DNA of 34,572 nt from a virus: positions 1 through 34,572 of the IMG/VR virus record IMGVR_UViG_3300042539_001813; one strand, written 5' to 3'. This document shows, piece after piece, positions 7,699-14,553 of the stretch. The stretch's first letter is position 1. Every line of letters starts with the position of its first letter. A program made the position numbers and the translations under genes. Below the pieces are notes generated by a model. It was not told the DNA's origin and ran no database searches. It saw nothing but the letters and a program-made list of their open reading frames with translations.

Positions 7699-8254
7699 GA
7701 TTCAGTTTTCTTTCTAATGACTCGGTTAGCGAACATCGCTCGCAAAACATTTGAGGCTTTCTGTTTTGGTTTTTCAGGCTCGTTTTGCAGCTTGAAAAAA
7801 GCCATCCATTCCGTGAGCTCGGCACTCGACATTCGTGAAAGCATTTCCCCGACCGGCATGCCGAGCTTGAGCGCCAAGGAGAAATAAAATCTTCTCTCGG
7901 GCCGGGATTCTAGTTTTTTGCGAGGTCGTCCAAATCGGTCTGAGTGAGCCGATTCAATCTTTGCGCGACTTTGATGCAACGATCTAGTGCAGCCGAAGAT
8001 TTTCTCCCCAGTGCCACTAAATCATCCTTTGCAAAAAGGGAATTGCCGCCCTCATCGACGGCAGTGGCAAGCAAAAGCTTTGCGCGAATATTGTCCATAT
8101 TGGACTTATCTGCAATGAGCGATTGCTCCCACGCATCGCGCATGGCTCCGGTCATCGAGGCGATGATTACGTCACCGCCCCATTCAGGAACCGAGACCAC
8201 TTCTTTTTTCAGGTCATCTTTTTCGAGGATAGCCTCACGAGTTAGGATGGCCAT
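7695..8254 (-). CDS. Tail assembly chaperone GT, -1 frameshift fusion
   Basis: Shifting -1 at A_AAA_AAC (7919-7913) joins G residues 1-113 to the downstream frame, giving a 186-residue product. The junction reads DLDDLAKKLESRPERRFYF, and the T part (SLALKLGMPVGEMLSRMSSAE, then ELTEWMAFFKLQNEP) matches the short T domains of siphoviruses, which often carry this LTEW-type helix. The T frame has no credible start of its own: its only upstream Met (7979) lies inside G. GT would bind tail tube through T and tape measure through G. The T stop overlaps the tape-measure ATG. Confidence 0.82.
7910..8254 (-). CDS. Tail assembly chaperone G (unshifted product)
   Basis: A 114-residue protein (MAILTREAILEKDDLKKEVVS, VPEWGGDVIIASMTGAMRDAWE, ending DLDDLAKN) of the phage tail assembly chaperone type, placed between tail tube and tape measure. 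It is expected to coat the tape measure during tail assembly and not enter the virion. The last two sense codons before the TAG lie within a slippery heptamer, so a fraction of ribosomes should continue in the -1 frame to make GT. The start ATG lies four bases after the tail-tube stop. Confidence 0.85.
   Translation of the reverse strand: MAILTREAILEKDDLKKEVVSVPEWGGDVIIASMTGAMRDAWEQSLIADKSNMDNIRAKLLLATAVDEGGNSLFAKDDLVALGRKSSAALDRCIKVAQRLNRLTQTDLDDLAKN
7913..7919 (-). promoter_or_regulatory. -1 ribosomal frameshift site of the G/GT chaperone
   Basis: On the minus strand the zero-frame codons are GCA AAA AAC TAG, which contain the heptamer A_AAA_AAC in correct X_XXY_YYZ phase, directly before the G stop codon. 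The downstream T frame is exactly -1 to G. G/GT frameshifting here is a well established feature of long-tailed phages. A stimulatory downstream structure was not worked out. Confidence 0.8.
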
Positions 8255-9937: not shown

Positions 9938-10504
9938 TCAGACTCCGAAAAATCGATAGGGATCAAGAAGTCCGTCTGCAAAGTCGTGTGGCACTCGCGC
10001 CTTTTCGCCGGAAATGGAGCGCATCTGATCGTAGAGATCACCAACGGCAAGCAGGATCCAATGACGTATCGGAGCGGGCACGTCGGCTCCGGTTGCCCCA
10101 TAGCCCGCAACGTAGGTCACGGTCATCGCATTAGCAATGTTCGTCGTTGGGAAGGATTTGCCGTTTGCTGGGATGACCCAGCCAGGCTCGCTTACCTTGT
10201 CAAGAAAGTAGTCTGCGGAATTGAGTACCACTGGTGTGCCCGTCAGGTCCGTGTAGAGGATCTGACTCACAGAGACCACGGGCGGCATTGACAAGGGGAT
10301 CGCACTGGGAAACTCATCTAACGTAAGTTTCCAAGTCGTATTGATTAGGGTCCGCTCGGTCCGGTTTTCCGCTGCCAGGCGGGCAACCGAAATCAGTGAG
10401 GTGATGTAAGTGTCATCAGCAGAGTGATCCACTCGTAAATGAGTTTTTGCCTCGGAAAGTGAAACGGGCTCAACGGCAGGTTGAACGAATCGAAATGGGT
10501 TCAT
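9938..10504 (-). CDS. HK97 gp6-like / phiE125 gp8-like head-tail connector
   Basis: A 188-residue adaptor: VEPVSLSEAKTHLRVDHSAD, DTYITSLISVARLAAENRTER, WKLTLDEFP and the ending HWILLAVGDLYDQ identify the phiE125 gp8/HK97 gp6 family. These proteins form the ring that binds the portal and receives the stopper protein. The start ATG shares a base or two with the stop of the 938-residue protein (TAATG-type junction at 10504-10506). Usual length for the family. Confidence 0.94.
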   Translation of the reverse strand: MNPFRFVQPAVEPVSLSEAKTHLRVDHSADDTYITSLISVARLAAENRTERTLINTTWKLTLDEFPSAIPLSMPPVVSVSQILYTDLTGTPVVLNSADYFLDKVSEPGWVIPANGKSFPTTNIANAMTVTYVAGYGATGADVPAPIRHWILLAVGDLYDQMRSISGEKARVPHDFADGLLDPYRFFGV

Positions 10505-13320
10505 TAAGTGTTCCTCAAGATAGTGGTCTTTTGTGAGGCGCGAGAGGTATTCAGTTGTTCTGGCCTGGTCGTATTTAAGGCGCCAGGTCGGGTGTACAAC
10601 AGATCCTTGGGCGCAAAACCTACTCCGGCGGGCGCTTCGACAACCACATAAACCGCAATCTGAGCCGAGGTCGAACCGTTAATTTGATTGACATTTTGTC
10701 CAAGCAATTTGCCTGGGATAACAATAAAACCAGAGCCAGAGGCGTTTTGTTGGTTAAGGCTCAGGCCCAAGAGCCGATGCACCTGTGTAATGGCACCGGT
10801 GCTTACCGTGCTGGGCTGGGCGGTGTTGGCGCCCGTCAGAAAATAACTAATCGTTACTGCTGCGCTGGTGCTGGCGTTGGCCTGGCTGGCATTTGCCCCC
10901 GACAAAACGTGTGTCTGGCTAACCGCTCCAGTCGTTGATGTATTGAGTTGGGCGACGTTTTGGCCCCCCAAAGCATCGGATTGCGACACAGCGCCTGTAC
11001 TTGTCTGGTTAACCTGCGTGGTCGAGCTCGCGCTTAGCAGATGTGTTTGACTAATCGCGCCTGTGGTACTTGTATTGGGCTGGCTAACCCCATTCCCGGT
11101 GAGTAATAAAACCTGCTGAATTGATCCAGAGTCGGACGCGTTGTCCTGCGCAACCGAGTTACCAGCAAGCTCGTGGGTTTGCGAAATGGCCCCCGTACTG
11201 GACGTGGCAGTTTGGGCGACACTGTTGCCGGTTAGGTTCCGAACAGCCGCCGTAAATAACCAGCCTGTATTACTGGTGTTTGTGCTGTTTGCGCCTGCGT
11301 ACCACGCGGCGCCTCCAGTAGCGGCCGTGCGTGTCAGGGCAAGATAGTCACAATCAACGATGCCCGACGCTTTTGAGAAAGTCGTTGTCAGCGACGCGCT
11401 AGATGACTGAACGGTGGCAAGATTCCCAGAGGTTCCTCTGAGACTAAAATTTTCAAAAGTAAACGTCCTTGATGTTTGAAATGTAATAGACGCGTTTGCA
11501 GTTGTATTTCTCAAATCATAGATCGCAGCGGTTCCGCCTGCTTCAAAATCAATGATAGAGGTTGTATTTATGTCGAAAGCGGGCCATGAGGGGTTCGGTG
11601 TTCCGACAAGTTCTAGGTCTGAGCCTGCAGAGCTCGTAATACGGATTGTGCCGTCGTTGTAATCAGGGAAATCAAAATTGCTAATAGCCGAACCGTTAAT
11701 CGTGTCACCAGTGCCACGAAGCACGAGTTCGCCACCGCCGAACAGTATGCCGCGCTTTACGTTAGTAGTTGTCGTGCCAATTTCTAAAATCGTGTTGCTA
11801 GATTGATAACCATTGAGATCGTAATATCCGGTATAAGGTTGAATAATCGCCGCTTCAAGATTGGCAAGTAATTTTACTTTTCCTACAGGACTTGAATCAT
11901 TTCTTGCACGGATGTAAATTGGCCACGTTGCGCATGAACGACCAGCAGCATCAATCTCCGCACCGTCCCTAAAGACTGCTCCAGAGGTCCCAGAAGTCGT
12001 AATGCCGCTACCGAGGATCAACTTGTCTTTAATAAAATAAAGTGTGCTTGCGTTTAGCGTGAATGCTGACGTCCGCGCACTGCAATTGAGTGTTCCCGCA
12101 CGAGGCCTAGCACCAGCCCCCGATAGGCTTGTCGCGCCGGTGAGTTGATCAATGATGAGCGTATCTTGCGGTAAAGGGAAATTTGCTGAAGAACCTCCCC
12201 CTCCACTACTGAGCGCAAAGATGTTTGCCGTGTTCCAGTTAACTGCTCCCGTCCCTACGAGATAGACTGTTTTTGGAGCTGTCGGTGTCAGGCCGATGTT
12301 GTTTCCATAATCACCAATGTCTGTTCCCGACCATGTCGCGCCCCCGCCTAGAGTTAGGCCTAGGAAATCGACCGATGTCAAACTTACTGTGGCCGCATTG
12401 ATGACGGGCCACGTACCCGCTTCTTCGGTGAAAACCGACGCCAAAATGACACGCCGCAAATTATCGCGACCAGTAGCCGTGAACGTACCGTTGACTGTGA
12501 CCGTCGCGCCTACATAAAACAATACTGATTGAGTGCTGTAGTTCGCCCCGATTTCTGTAATTGTAAAGTTGTTACATGTAAAACTGCTTTCAACATCAAC
12601 CTCTGTCGCCTCCGCAGTCGTTTCCAAGTTGTAGAGCGTTGCACCCTGCGGATCGATTGTGCCGCCCGCAACTTTTACGCTGATTGTTGACGTTCCTGCG
12701 TTAAATGTCGTTCCAGTTGGATTGATGCGCAGACCTGCAGCAGTACCTAAAAGCGAGACCGTTGACGAACCCAAATTGATGGTTTTTGTACCGGAGCCGA
12801 ACGCTTGAAAATCAAAAGTCGTGAGGCTGTAATTGCCAGTATTGAACGTGCCCCCGCTGATATAGAAGCGACCACCACTACCACTGTTCTGCGCAAAATT
12901 GCCTGCAAGGGTGTACGTCCCGGACATAAACTCAGTTGTTTGAACGGTACCAGTAAAGGTGCGCCCGCCTTGGTCGAACGTGTGCGTGCCCGTACCGCGC
13001 AACTGAATTTTAAATGCACCACTCCACGTGATGTTAGAGCCGTTGAGCGAAAAGTTCCCATACACCTGCAGGATTTGCGAAGTGCTTCCAGCCATCGTCA
13101 ACGTGCCATCTAACCCGCTGACGGTTAGACTTGCGCACGCCACAGTGCCGCTGATCGTGATCGTGAATGCGCCGGTGCCTACATTTGAGCTCTCATCAAT
13201 GATGACATCATCAGAAGATGTGGGTGCGGTCTCGCCACCCGAGCCACCACTGCTAGCCGCCCAGTTCGTTGTGGTGGTGCTCCACGTGCCGGTGCCGCCA
13301 ACCCAATAGCGATTCGCCAC
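10504..13320 (-). CDS. Large beta-rich repeat protein in the head module (candidate head fibre/adhesin)
   Basis: A 938-residue protein starting at GTG 13320 with GGCGGA upstream. It begins MANRYWVGGTGTWSTTTTNW and continues as Gly/Thr/Ser-rich short beta strands (FTITISGTVACASLTVSGLD and many alike) to about residue 690, as in right-handed beta-helix or adhesin-like proteins. Residues 696-893 are nine tandem 22-residue repeats. A 45-residue tail (APKDLLYTRPGALNTTRPEQ, then LNTSRASQKTTILRNT) ends it. No signal peptide or transmembrane segment is visible. The N-terminal opening is one I know from phage structural proteins of unclear role. Its place between capsid and connector genes suggests a head surface fibre or decoration rather than a tail fibre; that is inference. 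Confidence 0.8.
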   Translation of the reverse strand: MANRYWVGGTGTWSTTTTNWAASSGGSGGETAPTSSDDVIIDESSNVGTGAFTITISGTVACASLTVSGLDGTLTMAGSTSQILQVYGNFSLNGSNITWSGAFKIQLRGTGTHTFDQGGRTFTGTVQTTEFMSGTYTLAGNFAQNSGSGGRFYISGGTFNTGNYSLTTFDFQAFGSGTKTINLGSSTVSLLGTAAGLRINPTGTTFNAGTSTISVKVAGGTIDPQGATLYNLETTAEATEVDVESSFTCNNFTITEIGANYSTQSVLFYVGATVTVNGTFTATGRDNLRRVILASVFTEEAGTWPVINAATVSLTSVDFLGLTLGGGATWSGTDIGDYGNNIGLTPTAPKTVYLVGTGAVNWNTANIFALSSGGGGSSANFPLPQDTLIIDQLTGATSLSGAGARPRAGTLNCSARTSAFTLNASTLYFIKDKLILGSGITTSGTSGAVFRDGAEIDAAGRSCATWPIYIRARNDSSPVGKVKLLANLEAAIIQPYTGYYDLNGYQSSNTILEIGTTTTNVKRGILFGGGELVLRGTGDTINGSAISNFDFPDYNDGTIRITSSAGSDLELVGTPNPSWPAFDINTTSIIDFEAGGTAAIYDLRNTTANASITFQTSRTFTFENFSLRGTSGNLATVQSSSASLTTTFSKASGIVDCDYLALTRTAATGGAAWYAGANSTNTSNTGWLFTAAVRNLTGNSVAQTATSSTGAISQTHELAGNSVAQDNASDSGSIQQVLLLTGNGVSQPNTSTTGAISQTHLLSASSTTQVNQTSTGAVSQSDALGGQNVAQLNTSTTGAVSQTHVLSGANASQANASTSAAVTISYFLTGANTAQPSTVSTGAITQVHRLLGLSLNQQNASGSGFIVIPGKLLGQNVNQINGSTSAQIAVYVVVEAPAGVGFAPKDLLYTRPGALNTTRPEQLNTSRASQKTTILRNT
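10642..11235 (-). repeat. Nine tandem 66-bp coding repeats (22 residues each)
   Basis: Residues 696-893 of the large head-module protein divide without gaps into nine units of exactly 22 residues. The consensus starts LTGxxVAQxNxSTTGAxSQ; units 1, 3 and 5 are the most alike and units 8 and 9 the most diverged. The invariant positions are Leu1 and Gln8, with Gly3 and Gly/Ala15 nearly so. Confidence 0.9.
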
Positions 13321-13333
13321 TTTCCGCCTTTAA

Positions 13334-13714
13334 TTATGTGGGTTGCTGGGATGTATAAACCAGGACGGGGAAATTCACCGCGTTGCCAATAGTAATTATC
13401 TGGCCACTCGTTTCTTCGGTAACCCACAACACCTTGCTGTTGACGGTATCAACAAACGCGATATGTGAGGCTGTCCCGGTGGCATTTGCGCTTGCGTCGC
13501 TCTTGCCTGCTGCGGTGGTAAGCGTTCGATTATTGCCGGACGTGCCAAGCGTAAAGTCCGTCGAGGTCATTGCGACTTCGGCCAAAATGTCTCCATTTAC
13601 CGTTGCATACGAGTTACCAAATGTGTAGGCATCAATCACAGCCATTTTGTTGCAATTAGTTTTGATGTAGTTAATCCCTTGGTCTAACACATCGGGGTGA
13701 GCATATTTAGCCAT
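13334..13714 (-). CDS. Small phage head-associated protein of unknown function
   Basis: A 126-residue protein, MAKYAHPDVLDQGINYIKTN followed by TDFTLGTSGNNRTLTTAAGK and TASHIAFVDTVNSKVLWVTE. Small proteins with this layout (a short helix, then beta strands with a GRKxTVAA-like turn and an A-T-H-x-A-L/F-x-D strand) recur in siphovirus head or fibre modules; I do not know a verified function. AAGGAAT eight bases upstream supports the start. It lies immediately before the 938-residue protein (13 bases between), so the two may act together, for example as anchor and fibre. Confidence 0.75.
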   Translation of the reverse strand: MAKYAHPDVLDQGINYIKTNCNKMAVIDAYTFGNSYATVNGDILAEVAMTSTDFTLGTSGNNRTLTTAAGKSDASANATGTASHIAFVDTVNSKVLWVTEETSGQIITIGNAVNFPVLVYTSQQPT

Positions 13715-13765: not shown

Positions 13766-14440
13766 TCAGTCTGTAAATCGGATAAGAGCCTCCTCGAGGC
13801 TTAGGCGATCAAAACAAGTAAGCGCTGTGTCGCGAGAGAGATTGAAAACATCGACGCCCTCTGTTTTGAGGTCTTGCGCTAAGTGCGGAAAGTGCGACAT
13901 CCATAGAGCGTAGGATTGGATCTTGCTAAGTGGCCCTTGGTGTTGACCAAACCAGTGAGCCTTTTGGTTCTTGCCCGGTTTGCAATCGAAACCCAAAAGC
14001 AAAATGCGCTGCGCTCCCCAAAGCCAGGCGAGATTGATTGCTTGAAAACCGCCGTTGGCGCCTTGATGAATAGTTCCGTCTCGCCCAAGACCCTTTTCGT
14101 TTCGGCTGCCTACCCTTTGAATTCCAAACCGCTCATGGGCACTTAGGTCCTGAGTCCAGAGCTCGCCTTTGAATTCCTTTTTGACTTGCGCGAAGTGGAC
14201 TTTCCACCACGGTTCGTCGCAGGCATAGAGAGCGTTTGCGAATCGAGCGATTCGCCAGGAGTCGTTGACGACAATGACACGCCAGTTGGTGCCTGTAAGA
14301 GCATTGCAGTCGTCTTCTGTGAGACTGGGGCCGCTCGCAATGACACAAACGGTGTGCCCCCACCATCGACCTGCGGTTCGGTCGATTGCGGGCCTTTGTG
14401 GCGCACCGTTAGAGGGAAATTTGGTTGTGCGAGATTGAGC
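13766..14440 (-). CDS. Conserved phage protein (glycosyltransferase/DUF115-like fold suspected) lacking its own start codon
   Basis: The minus-strand frame is open from 14440 (after a TAG at 14443-14441) to the stop at 13766, 224 codons, and is clearly coding: GRWWGHTVCVIASGPSLTED, then RVIVVNDSWRIARFANALYA, CDEPWWKVHFAQVKKEFKGE, RDGTIHQGANGGFQAINLAW and AQRILLLGFDCKPG. This conserved pattern (xxCIASGPSLT near the N-terminus, VNDxWR, HWFGxH) is one I know from phage head modules, sometimes annotated as norphogenetic protein; the fold resembles nucleotide-sugar-binding DUF115 proteins. There is no ATG, GTG or TTG before the conserved GPSLT motif. Translation therefore needs a -1 shift from the upstream ORF, a rare start (ATC or ATT), or an error or mutation has broken the gene. 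If fused, the product is 262 residues. Confidence 0.7.
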   Translation of the reverse strand, partial: AQSRTTKFPSNGAPQRPAIDRTAGRWWGHTVCVIASGPSLTEDDCNALTGTNWRVIVVNDSWRIARFANALYACDEPWWKVHFAQVKKEFKGELWTQDLSAHERFGIQRVGSRNEKGLGRDGTIHQGANGGFQAINLAWLWGAQRILLLGFDCKPGKNQKAHWFGQHQGPLSKIQSYALWMSHFPHLAQDLKTEGVDVFNLSRDTALTCFDRLSLEEALIRFTD

Positions 14441-14553
14441 CTAAAAAGCTCGTCCGCAATGTAGGCTGGCACGCTTAAACGCTGCTTTCGCGCCACACTC
14501 CCAATGCGACTATTTACAAAATTTGAGGTTGCGACAATGTCAACAAGTTCCAT
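14143..14553 (-). CDS. Short phage protein upstream of, and probably fused to, the glycosyltransferase-like ORF
   Basis: From ATG 14553 the first 46 residues (MELVDIVATSNFVNSRIGSV, RKQRLSVPAYIADELFRLNL) look real: small head-module proteins with an I-A-T-x-N-F start, an RKQRL strand and an I-A-x-x-L helix are found in this position in related phages. After about residue 46 the frame runs antiparallel to nothing known and is simply the +1 shadow of the neighbouring coding frame, so the annotated C-terminal 90 residues may not be a real domain. It is preceded, after the capsid gene, by a terminator. Confidence 0.5.
   Translation of the reverse strand: MELVDIVATSNFVNSRIGSVARKQRLSVPAYIADELFRLNLAQPNFPLTVRHKGPQSTEPQVDGGGTPFVSLRAAPVSQKTTAMLLQAPTGVSLSSTTPGESLDSQTLSMPATNRGGKSTSRKSKRNSKASSGLRT
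14416..14422 (-). promoter_or_regulatory. Candidate -1 slippery heptamer A_AAT_TTC
   Basis: Zero-frame codons of the 14553 ORF read CCA AAT TTC CCT, containing A_AAT_TTC in X_XXY_YYZ phase. It lies in the overlap just after the TAG that opens the downstream -1 frame. A -1 shift gives the junction AQPNFPSNGAPQRP and enters the conserved glycosyltransferase-like frame. No downstream stimulatory structure was established. Confidence 0.4.

Follow-up and report, generated by a model that had tools for sequence, protein, structure and literature searches.

The window analyzed here is a stretch of 34,572 nucleotides from an IMG/VR virus record (IMGVR_UViG_3300042539_001813). It contains, between its head and tail genes, a gene for a large, probable fibre protein. 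The preliminary description had indicated an open reading frame of 938 residues at positions 10504 to 13320, which is real but had been assigned without noticing that it is located on the minus strand; the plus strand at these coordinates is riddled with stop codons. The features of the region are listed below, together with the evidence for each assignment.

13320..10504, minus strand: fibre gene, 938 amino acids, GTG start codon at 13320, stop codon TAA.
12268..13320, minus strand: adhesin-like beta-helix domain, copy 1, residues 1-351 (AF2 model, VIA alignment, relatives).
11245..12267, minus strand: beta-helix domain, copy 2, residues 352-692 (motif repeat and relatives; AF2 confidence low).
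10642..11235, minus strand: nine contiguous 22-residue repeats, residues 696-893 (autocorrelation, unit profile, AF2 model).
10507..10641, minus strand: C-terminal tail of 45 residues, residues 894-938, a putative anchor (short Arg-Pro containing motifs).
13334..13714, minus strand: dec126, a partner protein of 126 amino acids, small beta-sandwich, putative fibre subunit or adaptor (linkage and predicted fold).
9938..10504, minus strand: gp6-like head-tail connector (PF05135, E 7e-9; phrog_442, E 2e-26).

The gene order is portal, protease, major capsid protein, a small gene, dec126, fibre gene, gp6-like connector, head closure, and tail genes. The terminase, portal, protease and capsid genes are upstream of the fibre gene, while the genes for head closure, an HK97 gp10-like protein, tail terminator, tail tube, tape measure and a GTA-like tail tip follow on its downstream side. 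This agrees with the earlier placement of the gene between a small head protein and the connector. The stop codon of dec126 is separated by 13 bases from the start of the fibre gene, and the stop codon of the fibre gene overlaps the ATG of the connector in the sequence TAATG. The fibre protein and dec126 of the window each matched no family in Pfam or PHROGs, which includes the known capsid decoration families (Hoc-like, Ig-like), and a PDB sequence search with the fibre protein as query gave no match.

Upstream of dec126, a gene with a weak Pfam match to MptE-like “ASGPSLT” proteins (14368..13766, minus strand) shares about 220 bases, read in a different frame, with the 3' part of the small head-module gene before it (14553..14143, minus strand). 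The two frames are retained in the relatives L034, L035, L036, L053, L039, L040 and L042 (L numbers denote loci of relatives), and the two genes are possibly a long overprinted pair. An extra gene is located between the MptE-like gene and dec126 in L035 (2964-3671), L036 (3450-4148) and L053 (5291-5986); that of L035 is a GT2-like glycosyltransferase according to Pfam, slightly under the cut-off. Such sugar genes adjoining a Ser/Thr-rich fibre could point to glycosylation of the virion.

The N-terminal three quarters of the fibre protein are composed of two tandem beta-helix domains, which had been missed in the preliminary description, as had the linkage to dec126. The two domains open with the related motifs YWVGGTGTW (residues 1-351) and YLVGTGAVNW (residues 352-692), and the second one terminates in the motif AAWYAGANSTNTSNTGW. 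Copy 1 has relatives at 30-38% identity in unrelated phages, and residues ~600-691 are matched by relatives at 49-60%. Relatives of the beta-helix domain were found at about 30 other viral loci, none of which carried the other genes of the window that were tested. The AF2 model of the full-length monomer had a mean pLDDT of 65.5. A beta-helix was predicted with confidence for residues ~1-340 (pLDDT mostly 76-94 for residues 1-260 and lower thereafter) and the repeats appeared as a beta-solenoid-like array, but residues ~350-690 were unreliable and the C-terminal tail was of low confidence. The pLDDT of the repeats, ~71-86, has to be read with caution since perfect repeats can yield invented solenoids and over-confident models. 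The N-terminal domain aligned with phi29 gp12 at a VIA Z of 16.3, with 307 residues aligned within positions 2-357, which exceeds the level at which caution is needed for repeats. By its predicted fold, this part of the protein is a beta-helix domain of the receptor-binding or depolymerase type, as in phage fibres and tailspikes.

The nine repeats of exactly 22 residues noted previously were recovered at residues 696-893. The autocorrelation of the array in the window was 0.39 at a distance of 22 and 0.44 at a distance of 44 residues, whereas none of 2000 shuffles exceeded 0.21. The higher value at 44 hinted at a dimeric super-repeat, which was absent across 50 proteins and was discarded. From 609 distinct units in 72 proteins, the consensus L-x-G-x-x-x-x-Q-x-N-x-S-x-x-G-A-[IV]-x-Q-x-H-x was obtained. 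Among relatives, the number of units varied from 2 to 30 with a spacing of nearly always 22, so that the earlier proposal of a stalk of variable length was substantiated by this comparison: a protein of 2191 residues (L083/L053, with 74% identity of the major capsid protein) contains ~27 consecutive units versus 9 in the window. Unequal crossing-over, which had been offered as the mechanism of copy-number change, is supported by some relatives, though not by the window itself. Unit pairs with up to 98% identity at the DNA level occurred in L055 and L137, and near-identical pairs also in L059 and L075, showing recent duplication there. The units of the window are at most 58% identical in DNA and Tandem Repeats Finder reported no array, indicating that the array is old here.

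In searches for the repeat alone, no relative was found in IMG/VR with the window's own units, a repeat alignment of 13 rows was too variable for scanning, and the arrays of two relatives returned mainly known loci in addition to L159/L160, which begin too near the array to reveal any upstream dec126. The repeat profile had no match in the PDB. Two relatives, L102 (8388-11054) and L116 (8392-10995), possess a split array with three units, a gap of ~450-465 residues and six further units, which looks like the insertion of an adhesin domain into the stalk.

The AF2 model of dec126 was a small beta-sandwich with a pLDDT of 95.6. The best Foldseek match in the PDB was a small chain of the tail-fibre entry of phage 7-7-1 (probability 1.00, TM 0.60, E 8e-3), and the top seven VIA alignments were all to neck, fibre, tail or baseplate parts of phages. 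The Z values were 8.4 for the Sf14 neck, 8.2 for the Bas63 connector, 7.7 for GP4 fibre I, 7.6 for the HFTV1 tail, 7.3 for the 7-7-1 tail fibres, 7.2 for the T4 baseplate and 6.6 for the Bxb1 tail tip; each of these is weak individually because unrelated models reach a Z of about 7-8, and the matched subunit was established for 8jou_a of GP4 alone (rmsd 2.9 over 108 residues). At the level of sequence, no dec126 member could be matched convincingly to any known fibre family. PF23140, the family of the GP4 protein gp80, was matched by none of 54 dec126 members at E values up to 5, while the true gp80 proteins of phage CSP3 and L050 matched it at 3e-33 and 6e-27, respectively. As the hhalign probability for dec126 and gp80 was also low at 8.6%, dec126 was not assigned to the gp80 family. 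The only matches of the dec126 profile in the PDB, to designed Pizza propellers, were rejected as a repeat artefact, most of them having no single stretch that passed the threshold.

IMG/VR contains homologues of dec126, and so do bacterial genomes of Halomonas, Massilia, Nitrosospira and Nitrosovibrio. Distinct dec126 loci on phage contigs and in prophages numbered 83; of the 71 that were informative, 67 had a 22-residue-repeat ORF nearby as detected with the unit profile, the remaining 4 being devoid of a scored repeat ORF; most of these loci had been found via dec126 and many are related, so that they are not independent. The repeat ORF was mostly 0-2.7 kb from dec126, and the pairing holds even when no other gene of the window is shared. 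In the reverse direction, among the small number of loci fetched only via the beta-helix domain or the capsid protein, a repeat ORF was never present without dec126. A survey of 300 genomes belonging to one order gave dec126 in two genomes and the repeat in a single one, where it adjoined its dec126. A scan of 337 alphaproteobacterial genomes, run without a positive control, yielded no repeats and two weak dec126-like sequences.

The dec126 proteins were 70-87% identical between contigs with no other window gene in common in the fetched flanks. Conversely, L039 and L040, with 71% identity of the major capsid protein, possess neither dec126 nor the fibre gene, and the same interval is occupied by an MptE-like “GPSLT” gene together with two or three genes lacking an assigned family. 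The linkage of dec126 and repeat, the similarity of dec126 between contigs with no other window gene in common in the fetched flanks, and the absence from close capsid relatives together indicate an accessory cassette that is exchanged between phages. It is very probable that the fibre gene and dec126 constitute such an accessory virion-fibre cassette, and a mobile, dispensable element is the best reading of the comparison of these loci. Some arrangements deviate: in L120 (11229-12092), a dec126 domain starts an ORF of 288 residues downstream of the repeat gene, with a second dec126 upstream at 8001, and in L042 (1-4646) the tail genes that come after the capsid-region genes are inverted, which may reflect an assembly join.

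The N-terminal part of the repeat protein varies among relatives: it may be lacking, be a YWVGGTGTW domain, or consist of other domains that have no Pfam name. The repeat gene is followed by a gp6-like connector in the window, L069 and L093, by a DnaT_2-type protein in L058, and, one gene further on, by a portal in L055. A gene for PF23148, “Podophage GP4 fiber-tail adaptor protein gp77”, follows in L050 and L097 and, with scores under the cut-off, in L101 and L131; by the strict model, 14 of 68 relatives had a gp77-like gene close to the repeat ORF and in 12 it abutted the ORF, while none was found in the window. In L108 (10848-11591), three repeats are fused N-terminally to the head-tail adaptor Phage_Mu_Gp36 (E 1.6e-28). 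L134 (4245-5084) combines 22-residue-like repeats with a gp6-like connector, below the Pfam cut-off, and may be a fusion similar to that in L108. The type of C-terminal tail covaries with the next gene: a gp77-like gene was directly downstream in 12 of 19 cases with an ENR-type tail versus 5 of 43 with other tails (Fisher p 7e-5, and 0.011 when the Nitrosospira group is left out), tail types having been assigned by a simple pattern and the p-values not accounting for kinship. This covariation suggests that the C terminus serves as the anchor and that the N terminus is the distal business end.

The earlier idea of an adhesin-like protein encoded within the head/neck operon is supported. The more specific suggestion of a head fibre is supported only in part and not in the sense of the capsid shell: the connector and gp77 neighbours, the L108 fusion and the fold of dec126 make the neck the likelier place. 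The cassette may well be neck-anchored, with dec126 as a fibre subunit or adaptor. The N-terminal beta-helix domains would bind, or cut, a surface polysaccharide; the 22-residue-repeat stalk would set the reach of the fibre; the C-terminal tail would dock on the neck; and dec126 would be the small beta-sandwich subunit or adaptor linking the stalk with the head-tail connector.

If dec126 decorated the capsid lattice, with the large protein projecting from it or arranged like the capsid spikes GhsA/GhsB of gene transfer agents, which come to mind since the tail genes are GTA-like, the cassette would form a fibre of the capsid shell. The position of dec126 and the fibre gene after the major capsid gene in the window, L053 and L058 would fit, as would the capsid-fibre density at the pentamers of phage 7-7-1 (PMC12796354). 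However, the neighbours and fusions are connector and adaptor proteins, some podovirus-like relatives place the pair after an SU10-type adaptor gene and its neighbour instead of the capsid gene, and the fold matches of dec126 are neck and fibre parts and not capsid decoration proteins, making a capsid-shell location improbable. An ordinary side fibre anchored at the tail or baseplate, with a gene that is merely upstream, is likewise doubtful: the cassette is found with tail-fibre adaptor genes in podovirus-like relatives, and dec126 also resembles chains of the 7-7-1 tail-fibre complex, the T4 baseplate and the Bxb1 tail tip, but the window and several relatives embed the cassette before the connector, far away from the tail-tip genes.

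Neck anchoring would also be compatible with a special form of the model, in which dec126 dimers polymerize along the repeats like beads on a string and the repeat number is the ruler of fibre length, as a remote analogue of GP4 fibre I. The near-obligate pairing of dec126 and repeats points in this direction, as does Burkholderia podophage CSP3 with a gp80-like gene, a repeat protein of 20/22-residue periodicity and gp77 in this order. The profile score of dec126 against gp80, 22.9, was higher than all 79 column shuffles (maximum 17.8) and the reverse profile (17.6), and the whiskers of phage Sf14 are made of small-protein dimers (PMC11821841). Against this form stand the hhalign and PF23140 results and the absence of a 44-residue super-period. 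The cultured Octadecabacter Antarctic DB virus 2 (OANV2, L033; gp8, gp9 and gp11), moreover, possesses a gp80-like gene and a weak dec126-like gene together, and AF2 predicted a self-standing solenoid-like array instead; such polymerization is therefore considered unlikely. The 22-residue repeat protein of OANV2 carries the annotation “ribonuclease E”, and no virion proteomics for gp9 or gp11 was found in the available text of the OANV2 paper. In its widest version, a widespread and mobile two-gene fibre system not described in Pfam or PHROGs in which dec126 is arranged along the repeats, the repeat number determines length and the adhesin is swapped freely between podovirus- and siphovirus-like phages, the proposal is likewise unlikely. 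The preferred reading continues to be a neck-anchored fibre with dec126 as subunit or adaptor.

Long adhesins located away from the tail tip are poorly understood. Many phages, as well as genomes of Halomonas, Massilia and Nitrosospira, carry the cassette described here, which is optional, differs in length by its repeat number and exchanges its putative binding domain. The combination of dec126 and repeat may be used as a recognizable marker for the prediction of accessory fibres, and variants in repeat number could provide a natural length series relating fibre reach to adsorption.

Phage fibres, whiskers and adaptors are already known, and neither protein of the window's dec126-repeat pair matches a family in Pfam or PHROGs; a limited search of the open-access literature found no description of the pair. 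The N-terminal domain shares its predicted fold with the beta-helices of phi29 gp12, tailspikes, PL6 and fucoidan lyases (Z ~14-16), but at an identity of only ~6-12%, and the fibre protein is far longer and modular. In Shigella phage Sf14, small proteins form fibrous neck appendages, the whiskers being dimers of gp30/gp31 on the adapter gp37 (PMC11821841), and chain K of 9c39 was the best VIA match of dec126; the identity was 11% in the aligned part, however, and the available text of that paper describes no long repeat adhesin. Alishewanella phage LSH1 contains a dispensable, unexplained “extra structural module” of several genes, gp34-36. It comprises a beta-helix domain of the depolymerase/adhesin type whose C-terminal continuation is poorly predicted, a fibril protein that matches chain g of GP4 8JOU, and an Ig-fold protein (PMC13243795). 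By this published description it is alike in make-up, although it is located after the lysis genes.

GP4 fibre I (gp80, PF23140; gp77, PF23148; PDB 8JOU) is another of the closest known modules. Its architecture, deduced from the Pfam names, the PDB title and PMC13243795, is a small beta-rich protein, a repeat protein and gp77. The cassette in the window differs by a dec126 that does not match the gp80 family in sequence, by the lack of a gp77-like gene and by a 22-residue repeat of different sequence. The predicted fold of dec126 may resemble that of gp80, and the GP4-type gene order is common to several dec126 phages and the cultured CSP3, in which a gp80 homologue (8jou_a, E 2e-48) is followed by the repeat protein and then by gp77 (8jou_D, E 3e-19), the repeat protein ending in the ENR-type tail that is also shared with dec126 phages.
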